In this document: positions 5,214-7,426 of the stretch, one piece after another
How positions within the stretch are numbered: position 1 is the first letter of the stretch
How the letters are laid out: every line of letters starts with the position of its first letter
Source: an uncultured Lachnospiraceae bacterium
GTDB lineage: Bacteria; Bacillota_A; Clostridia; Lachnospirales; Lachnospiraceae
Length of the DNA: 7,426 bases
NCBI GenBank assembly: GCA_946621895.1
Contig: CAMOOZ010000022.1
Coordinates: 1-7,426, forward strand
Direction of reading: 5' to 3'
Notes under the pieces: generated by a model
The model's database searches: none
Told to the model about the DNA's origin: nothing
What the model saw: only the letters and a program-made list of their open reading frames with translations
Made by a program: the position numbers and the translations under genes

Positions 5214-5242
5214 TTGAAATTCACTGTGCAAGTTGTTAGAAT
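5214..5242 (+). promoter_or_regulatory. Sigma-A promoter of the sugar transporter
   Basis: TTGAAA (5214-5219), a 17-bp spacer and TAGAAT (5237-5242) match the housekeeping consensus at 5/6 and 5/6 positions with ideal spacing. Transcription would start near 5249. It is the best + strand promoter in the 324-bp gap between the minus-strand gene and the binding-protein gene, and lies in the locally AT-rich part of that gap. Confidence 0.7.
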
Positions 5243-5416: not shown

Positions 5417-6802
5417 ATGAAAAAAGTTTTAGGTTTCGCACTCTCCCTCACCATGGCGGGCATGCTTGTTGCCTGCGGCGGTGCACAGGGAGGAAACACT
5501 GCTGCACCTGCAGCTGATGCAGGCGCAGCCACGGAAGCTCCTGCAGCCGATGCAGCTGCCACTGATGCAGCAGCCACGGAAGCTCCTGCAGCAGAGGCCG
5601 AAGCTCCTGCAGCAGAGGCTGAGGCTCCCGCAGCAGAGGCCACCGGCAATGCCGCAAAGCCTCTTTGCTGGTTCAACCGTCAGCCTTCCAACAGCACCAC
5701 CGGTGAGCTGGATATGGCTGCGCTGAATTTCAATGACAAGACCTATTATGTTGGCTTCGATGCAAACCAGGGCGCACAGCTGCAGGGCCAGATGATCGCT
5801 GATTATCTGACTGCCGGCACCGCTGATCTGGACCGCAACGGCGATGGCATCATCGGTTATGTCCTTGCCATCGGCGATATCGGCCACAATGATTCCATTG
5901 CACGTACCCGTGGTGCAAGAGAAGCTCTTGGCACCGCTGTGGATGCAGGCGGCGCAACGGATCCTACACCTGCAGGCACGAACCTTGACGGCACCGCCAC
6001 TGTGGTACAGGATGGTTCCATCACCATCGCCGGAAAGGATTATATCGTCCGTGAGCTGGCTTCTCAGGAAATGAAGAACTCCGCCGGAGCTACCTGGGAT
6101 GCAGCCACTGCCGGAAACGCGATCAGCACCTGGTCCGCTTCCTTTGGCGATCAGATCGATGTGGTCGTCTCCAACAACGACGGTATGGCAATGTCCATCT
6201 TCAACTCCTGGTCCAAGGCGAACAAGGTTCCTACCTTCGGTTATGATGCAAACAGCGACGCTGTGGCAGCCATCGCAGAGGGCTACGGCGGCACGATCAG
6301 CCAGCACGCCGATGTGCAGGCTTACCTGACCCTCAGGGTCCTTCGCAACGCCCTTGACGGCGTGGATATCGACACCGGTATCGGCACTCCCGATGATGCG
6401 GGCAATGTGCTTACCGATGAGGACTACTACTACAATGCGGACGAGCGTTCCTACTATGCATTGAACCTGGCCGTGACCGCTGATAACTATAAGGATTTCA
6501 TGGATGCGACCAAGACCTACGCGCCCGTGTCCAATCAGCTGGATGAGGCTGCTCATGCCACGAAGAATGTCTGGCTTGACATCTACAATGCAGCGGATAA
6601 CTTCCTGAGCTCGACCTATCAGCCGCTTCTGGAGAACTATGACGATCTGCTGAACCTGAATGTCGAGTACATCGGCGGTGACGGTCAGACCGAATCCAAC
6701 ATCACCAACCGTCTGGGCAATCCTGACCAGTATGACGCATACGCGATCAACATGGTGAAGACGGACAACGCCGCTTCCTATACGGCGATTCTGAGCCAGT
6801 AA
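5417..6802 (+). CDS. mglB: Circularly permuted MglB-like sugar-binding lipoprotein
   Basis: A 461-aa substrate-binding protein of a sugar ABC transporter, anchored outside the membrane. The signal peptide ends in lipobox LVAC (Cys20). An Ala/Glu/Pro-rich tether spans about 21-80. The binding domain follows in permuted order. Residues ~81-364 match E. coli MglB from about 85 to its C-terminus: CWFNRQPS (Asn87 = Asn91), the Ca2+ loop DRNGDGIIG (139-147), GHNDSIAR (His157, Asp159, Arg163 = His152, Asp154, Arg158), Trp227 (= Trp183), SNNDGMAM (Asn254 = Asn211) and FGYDAN (Asp277 = Asp236). Asn256 is replaced by Gln296, and Ca2+ ligand Glu205 by Asp248. A linker (~365-384) leads to residues 385-461, which match MglB ~5-83: IYNAADNF (Asp394 = Asp14, Phe396 = Phe16) and YAINMVKTDNAASYTAIL. 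The ligand is probably galactose or glucose. ATG 5417 has GGAGG 9 nt upstream. A strong terminator and an MglA-like ATPase gene follow. Matching is from memory, by eye. Confidence 0.9.
   Translation: MKKVLGFALSLTMAGMLVACGGAQGGNTAAPAADAGAATEAPAADAAATDAAATEAPAAEAEAPAAEAEAPAAEATGNAAKPLCWFNRQPSNSTTGELDMAALNFNDKTYYVGFDANQGAQLQGQMIADYLTAGTADLDRNGDGIIGYVLAIGDIGHNDSIARTRGAREALGTAVDAGGATDPTPAGTNLDGTATVVQDGSITIAGKDYIVRELASQEMKNSAGATWDAATAGNAISTWSASFGDQIDVVVSNNDGMAMSIFNSWSKANKVPTFGYDANSDAVAAIAEGYGGTISQHADVQAYLTLRVLRNALDGVDIDTGIGTPDDAGNVLTDEDYYYNADERSYYALNLAVTADNYKDFMDATKTYAPVSNQLDEAAHATKNVWLDIYNAADNFLSSTYQPLLENYDDLLNLNVEYIGGDGQTESNITNRLGNPDQYDAYAINMVKTDNAASYTAILSQ
5579..5641 (+). repeat. Three tandem 21-bp repeats in the tether
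   Basis: Three consecutive 21-bp units (5579-5599, 5600-5620, 5621-5641) each encode EAPAAEA, residues 55-75 of the binding lipoprotein. The first two differ only at the last base and the third by a few synonymous changes. A related single unit encoding EAPAADA lies at 5534-5554. The repeats lengthen the flexible tether between the lipidated Cys and the folded domain, and could change copy number by slippage without a frameshift. Confidence 0.9.
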
Positions 6803-6820
6803 TACGGCAGTAAAAAATGG

Positions 6821-6855
6821 AAAGGTTGTGGGGCTTTGCCCCACAACCTTTTTTT
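6821..6855 (+). terminator. Strong intrinsic terminator between mglB and mglA
   Basis: AAAGGTTGTGGGGC (6821-6834) pairs perfectly over 14 bp with GCCCCACAACCTTT (6838-6851) around a TTT loop, followed by a T-run (6849-6855). It lies 18 nt after the binding-protein stop and 49 nt before the ATPase start, and no promoter is evident between. Such intra-operon terminators usually let only some transcripts continue, so binding protein is made in excess over the membrane and ATPase parts; the stem also protects the 3' end. Confidence 0.95.
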
Positions 6856-6904: not shown

Positions 6905-7426
6905 ATGGCAGGAAAGGAAAACGATATCATCCTCTCCATCCGCGGGATGTCGAAATCCTTCGGCAGGAACAGGGTGTTGGACAGGATCAATCTGGATGTG
7001 AAACGGGGCACCGTCATGGGTCTGATGGGGGAAAACGGCGCCGGGAAATCCACGATGATGAAGTGCCTTTTCGGTACTTATCAGAAGGATGAGGGCAGCA
7101 TTTTCCTGGACGGACGGGAGGTGAGCTTCTCCGGCCCCAAGGATGCGCTGGAAAACGGGATCGCGATGGTGCACCAGGAGCTGAATCAGTGCCTGGAGCG
7201 CAGCGTCGTGGATAATCTGTTTCTCGGGCGTTATCCGAAGACCTCTCTTGGGATGGTCGATGAGGGGAGAATGAAAAAGGAGGCGGCGGATCTTTTCCGA
7301 AGCCTTGGCATGACCGTCAATCTGACTGCGCCGATGCGGACGATCAATTTTGCCCAACTTGGCATGAGCTCGACGGTAACACACATTTCCTATCATTCAC
7401 AGATAACCGCACTGTATCAGCCCACA
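6905..7426 (+). CDS. mglA: Sugar ABC transporter ATPase, 5' part
   Basis: The first 174 residues of a MglA/RbsA-type ATPase, open to the right edge; the family is usually ~500 aa with two nucleotide-binding domains, so about two thirds is missing. Seen: a typical first domain, SIRGMSKSFGRNRVLD, Walker A GENGAGKST (42-50), the segment FSGPKDALENGIAMVHQELN with Q-loop Gln91, and FLGRYP. After about residue 146 the match decays. Where MglA/RbsA proteins have a degenerate signature followed by a hydrophobic strand and Asp-Glu-Pro-Thr, this one reads INFAQLGMSSTVTH and then LYQPT, with Tyr171-Gln172 in place of the Walker B Asp-Glu. The frame stays open and length is kept. Either the end of the sequence is unreliable or domain 1 is catalytically altered. 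AGGGG (6892-6896) lies 8 nt before ATG 6905. It would energise uptake with the binding protein and a permease expected beyond the edge. Confidence 0.88.
   Translation, partial: MAGKENDIILSIRGMSKSFGRNRVLDRINLDVKRGTVMGLMGENGAGKSTMMKCLFGTYQKDEGSIFLDGREVSFSGPKDALENGIAMVHQELNQCLERSVVDNLFLGRYPKTSLGMVDEGRMKKEAADLFRSLGMTVNLTAPMRTINFAQLGMSSTVTHISYHSQITALYQPT

Follow-up and report, generated by a model that had tools for sequence, protein, structure and literature searches.

Does the binding-protein gene at positions 5417..6802 (forward strand) of the 7,426-nucleotide window analysed here, which comprises positions 1 to 7,426 of contig CAMOOZ010000022.1 from an uncultured Lachnospiraceae bacterium (GCA_946621895.1), encode a galactose/glucose-binding protein with a naturally permuted order, as a first-pass annotation of the sequence had proposed? 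Our results indicate that it does. The 461-amino-acid product is almost certainly a membrane-anchored glucose/galactose-binding protein of an Mgl-type ATP-binding cassette (ABC) importer, belonging to the published permuted subclass founded by TpMglB-2 of Treponema pallidum. Its nearest relatives suggest a gut Clostridia host, probably one near Lachnospiraceae. To the structural finding reported in 2016 for that protein, the analysis adds a demonstration of the permutation at the sequence level and a permuted binding protein strongly conserved in Clostridia genomes. An N-terminal arm on the adjacent permease and canonical-order lipoprotein paralogues nearby provide handles on why the permuted form persists.

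The open reading frame (ORF), supported by Pfam domains PF13407 and PF18610 and by PDB entry 5jx2, ends with a stop codon at 6800-6802, and all its segments are read on the forward strand. A signal peptide extends up to the lipobox cysteine, Cys20 (LVAC; 5417..5476), and is followed by a low-complexity tether rich in Ala, Glu and Pro (residues 21-79, 59 residues; 5477..5653), the DNA of which holds three copies of a 21-bp tandem repeat at 5579-5641. Alignments and Pfam assign to residues 80-366 (about 287 residues; 5654..6514) the end of lobe 1 and all of lobe 2, corresponding to Escherichia coli MglB (EcMglB) from approximately residue 85 to its C-terminal region; PF13407 covers residues 107-315, entering at profile position 94. 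The moved block (residues 383-461, about 79 residues; 6563..6799) corresponds to EcMglB residues ~1-80 in the alignments, carries D394 and F396, the equivalents of EcMglB Asp14 and Phe16, and is matched by PF18610 (Peripla_BP_7) at 382-452, with 137.4 bits against a gathering cut-off of 36.8. A gap between the two aligned blocks defines a linker at residues ~367-382 (6515..6562; boundaries approximate) that spans the old termini where PMC4990184 (section 6) places a fourth hinge and an extended segment; its 16-20 or so residues agree with the linker of about 20 residues previously proposed. On the minus strand, an antisense open frame of 471 amino acids (5429-6844) is probably a shadow of the codon usage of the binding-protein gene.

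The permuted order can be assessed directly by local alignment (BLOSUM62) to the mature EcMglB of E. coli MG1655. Residues 80-461 score 234 in the given order and 267 when residues 383-461 are put before residues 80-382; among rotations in steps of 2, the 15 best printed share a score of 269 (cuts at 352-380), and the lowest value is 154. The moved block scores 47 against EcMglB residues 1-90, a value reached in 5 of 2000 shuffles (mean 26.1, standard deviation 4.8). Scores for other pairings, given as comparison values without a shuffle baseline, are 27 for the moved block against EcMglB from residue 91 to the end and, against EcMglB 1-85, 32 for residues 80-382 and 21 for residues 1-79. Given these low scores, no hidden N-terminal half-lobe shows, including within residues 20-80, where by the first-pass annotation one would have refuted the permutation.

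Profile-profile comparison of 75 permuted proteins (the window protein and those of 74 from 80 related genome loci) with 55 canonical-order MglB proteins yields the same order. The permuted arrangement aligns 302 columns with a score of 247.6, versus 224 columns and 219.6 for the given one, and the moved block alone matches the N-terminal part of canonical MglB with an E-value of 6.7e-5 (0.67 for the reversed control). In linear order, the canonical MglB equivalog NF011924 matches the window protein in two stretches at 92.9 bits, below its curated cut-off of 420. This cut-off is exceeded in none of the 299 genomes of the Lachnospiraceae-family sample, canonical-order genes included, and alone it therefore cannot separate the two orders.

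Both blocks contribute to sugar contacts that are identical in all 75 aligned permuted proteins: D394 and F396 in the moved block, and N87, H157, D159, R163, W227, N254, D277 and Q296, the last being Gln at the EcMglB Asn256 position throughout. The calcium loop, D139-x-N141-x-D143-G (5831..5857, forward strand, by alignment), has Gly147 for EcMglB Gln142, and its residues D139, N141 and D143 are likewise invariant (75/75). The contacts, the Gln replacement and the intact loop had all been noted in the first reading of the sequence, with every position right. These invariant contacts and the measured homologue TpMglB-2 suggest that the window protein would bind a hexose sugar.

TpMglB-2 (Tp0684) was published in PLoS One in 2016 as a circularly permuted glucose-binding protein of 'Type Ic/Cluster Bc' (PMC4990184), and its structures are available as PDB 5jx2 and, later, 6bgc and 6bgd. 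Residues 21-384 of 5jx2 align linearly to residues 80-458 of the window protein (E 2.2e-91), and this full-length alignment implies that the two share the same block order. The predicted structure of the window protein also matches TpMglB-2 along its length (E ~1e-31), and a lobe-1 strand order of 5-4-6-1-2-3, as in the subclass, would be expected of it. Both are lipoproteins with an Mgl-type ABC partner, and they have in common the Gln at position 256 and the Gln142-to-Gly change in the calcium loop (G79 in TpMglB-2; PMC4990184). They differ in overall sequence (39-43% identity in structural alignments), in the residue at position 14, Asp here and Asn in TpMglB-2 (PMC4990184, Table 2), and in their hosts, Clostridia and a spirochaete. 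With canonical MglB/GGBP (E. coli; NF011924) the window protein shares the two-lobed type I fold, the sugar contacts and the EF-like calcium site, but not the block order, and no difference is seen from the Pfam pair PF18610 and PF13407, both above cut-off here; a literature search gave one paper naming PF18610, PMC9602780. Homologues from Gram-positive, largely gut, bacteria had already been reported, and the tether idea discussed (PMC4990184). The window protein is thus a member of a published subclass and its permutation is already known. The first-pass annotation, which knew of no permuted periplasmic-binding-protein family described in nature, was correct on the permuted structure and mistaken on its novelty. 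A literature search conducted largely without subscription papers gave, among the papers listed, only PMC4990184 as relevant to other permuted binding proteins.

The gene might instead encode an ordinary MglB that lacks its N-terminal half-lobe and carries an unrelated C-terminal domain. Plain phmmer matches canonical MglB over residues ~78-337 only and leaves the C-terminus unmatched, and the piece of TpMglB-2 corresponding to the moved block is itself a poor pairwise match, with 13% identity (PMC4990184). Set against this are the profile and shuffle results for the moved block, the universal presence of the Asp14 and Phe16 equivalents within it and the solved homologue, in which strands 1-3 of lobe 1 occupy that very place (PMC4990184); we consider the unrelated domain highly improbable. 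A separate C-terminal domain is accordingly rejected on the profile match, the shuffle test and the crystal structure 5jx2, unless the window protein folds differently, and the earlier proposal that the moved piece completes lobe 1 is supported. A chimeric assembly or frame artefact could be suspected from the abnormal look of the window's final ~87 bases, but its probability is negligible. In the protein search 7733 of 7996 scored candidates pass an E-value of 0.001, with both Pfam domains in 120 of the 120 matches listed, and the full permuted ORF was called in 74 of the 80 related genome loci, the other six (L004, L008, L030, L051, L061 and L062) being excluded from the locus counts and the profile. 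Its presence in these independent genomes argues that the window gene is not a chimeric assembly, as had been surmised, and the artefact is rejected on this ground. Some observations do weigh against a permuted glucose/galactose-binding protein: the moved block alone reaches an hhalign probability of just 63.6% against canonical MglB, the predicted structure is of moderate confidence (predicted local distance difference test, pLDDT, 61.9) and was built on 18 close sequences, and the Asp at position 14 contrasts with the Asn of the glucose-preferring TpMglB-2.

If the permuted protein works as TpMglB-2 has been shown to, the sugar would be held in a cleft between two lobes that close on it. Gene order suggests that it would then be handed to the MglA/MglC transporter encoded alongside: mglA lies in the window and mglC in its relatives. 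In 69 of 74 loci mglA is one of the first three ORFs after the permuted gene, and in 61 of them mglC is one of the first four (of the 74, mglA is uncalled in 5 and mglC in 13, in some of which the contig ends there). The chain path demonstrated in TpMglB-2, which the alignment predicts for the window protein as well, leads from the fourth strand of lobe 1 into lobe 2, returns through an extra hinge segment and finishes with the first three lobe-1 strands. The lipobox, whose Cys is present in 72 of the 75 aligned permuted proteins, points to lipid anchoring through a flexible tether of about 60 residues; since the chain starts at the fourth lobe-1 strand, anchor and tether would attach elsewhere than in the canonical order. 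The permutation probably arose by tandem duplication and loss of the outer parts.

Within the genome samples analysed, each of which contains its centre genome, picked for having the gene, the permuted gene is patchy. PF18610 occurs in 2 of 299 genomes sampled from the phylum of Claveliimonas bilis and in 32 of 299 from its family; a sample of the family to which a Flavonifractor-labelled genome belongs has it in 11 of 190, and the 14 control genomes have none. In a scan of viral contigs 30 stretches gave matches, not one of them coding for a relative, and tblastn against phage records returned four partial matches at 27-28% identity, in unannotated faecal records. In one 525-amino-acid homologue (P0004), parts of the protein recur as two internal segments, through either an assembly artefact or a real duplication. 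Locus L043 is titled Bacteroidales bacterium while its genome (G490) falls within the Claveliimonas bilis family sample, and it is likely mislabelled or a mixed bin.

The permease encoded beside the permuted protein in the related loci has a long N-terminal arm. MglC is 548-572 amino acids long in 59 of 61 instances (516 and 253 in the remaining two), the extra length being some 215 residues ahead of the region that aligns with E. coli MglC. In one example, the L012 permease (L012:8803-10455), the arm has 42 Lys/Arg and 42 Asp/Glu and lacks any hydrophobic stretch, its highest 19-residue window being 0.42. Long helices are predicted at residues 9-35, 38-53, 59-146 and 148-195, with pLDDT mostly 80-92, in a permease model with a mean pLDDT of 68.0, a predicted template modelling score (pTM) of 0.43 and a poorly predicted membrane part. 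Conservation over 59 sequences is lower in the arm than in the membrane part (0.74 versus 0.91 as mean majority fraction). A protein search with the arm gave 4094 of 7982 scored candidates; the permease domain PF02653 is found in 113 of the 120 matches listed, the other seven, shorter proteins (309-483 amino acids), comprising P0125, with PF00005, and six without a domain. The permease profile had no match among PDB sequences at E <= 0.1, Foldseek returned none for the permease model at E <= 0.001 (best E 0.35), and in the same literature search no paper on the arm was found among those listed, Tp0686 being named there only in PMC4990184.

The arm follows the permuted gene exactly in the two family samples. 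In that of Claveliimonas bilis all 32 genomes with PF18610 have a match to the arm and none of the 267 others does; the Flavonifractor-labelled family sample gives 11 of 11 against 0 of 179 (pooled, 43/43 and 0/446). The match is only partial in three of the 32: in G506 (33 residues) and G304 (140) the arm is on another contig than the binding-protein gene, the G506 permease being in frame from the contig end, and in G546 (85) the arm runs off the contig end. In the other 29, the PF18610 and arm matches are 1.85-2.41 kb apart on the same contig. As controls, 17 MglC-like ORFs from 20 loci around canonical-order MglB measure 327-423 amino acids. Three of these (L151-L153) carry an N-terminal leader of 73-87 residues, so that an N-terminal extension as such is not unique; L164 is a distant match.

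Canonical-order MglB-like genes are frequent neighbours, lying at most 10 kb from the permuted gene in at least 19 of the 32 genomes (counted by hand). Their arrangement was examined in 20 loci, 19 of them fetched because both kinds of gene lie there and one for contrast, which give no estimate of frequency. In 16 of the 19 (L129-L147), the canonical-order gene follows mglC, past ORFs for what are probably a response regulator, a histidine kinase and a further binding protein; in L145-L147 such a gene lies upstream of the permuted one, with one ORF between in L147 and a second such gene downstream in L145. Pfam checks of L129, L132 (8852-14557) and L146 identified, among the ORFs checked, a histidine kinase (dCache) in all three and an AraC-type response regulator in two. 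The canonical-order neighbours are probably sugar sensors; our literature search found no paper on a two-component arrangement beside the permuted gene.

These neighbours bear on why the permuted order persists. PMC4990184 raised the idea of the permutation as an adaptation to lipid tethering, which would suit permuted proteins that by sequence are nearly all lipoproteins; of the 20 canonical-order genes at the 19 loci, however, 17 also have a loose lipobox pattern within their first 60 residues, at positions judged plausible in 15. Tethering therefore does not seem to need the permuted order, and we regard this adaptation as improbable. Functional coupling of permuted order and permease arm in one transporter subtype, beyond joint inheritance, is also unlikely. 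The association of the arm with PF18610 in both families speaks for it, as does the contrast in permease length with the loci around canonical MglB, whereas the operon looks like one clade, in whose ancestor both traits may have been fixed. Moreover, the arm, with no hydrophobic segment before the first transmembrane segment, is probably cytoplasmic while the binding protein is outside, and leaders also occur in 3 of 17 control permeases. We thus favour inheritance of the permuted protein and the armed permease together as one operon. It is similarly unlikely, though conceivable, that gut Clostridia hold a distinct importer subtype in which the two co-evolved because the altered binding protein calls for a changed transporter cycle, with the canonical MglB found near a two-component system in many of these loci perhaps serving as sensor and the permuted copy for transport.

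The remaining features of the window concern the surroundings of the gene. Scans with Rfam (gathering threshold) and for tRNAs gave no matches in the window. A possible promoter, TTGAAA-17 nt-TAGAAT with a TG element, lies upstream at 5214..5242 (forward strand); it is a consensus match only (10/12 positions), in a scan that returned 6 sites in the scanned region against 1.2 expected. Between mglB and mglA, a repeat search located a 14-bp inverted repeat with 8 G-C pairs at 6821..6851 (no strand assigned; minus in the scan), a possible terminator or attenuator that sits where an attenuator would. The 5′ part of mglA (6905..7426, forward strand; ORF, Pfam and NCBIfam) encodes 174 amino acids of a sugar ABC transporter ATPase, the window ending before the rest of the gene. 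Its frame continues through the last ~87 bases (7340-7426), where LDEPT reads LYQPT, and DNA identity to four relatives per 29-base block, 66-93% before this segment, is 38-69% within it; these bases are probably noise or a chimera at the contig end.
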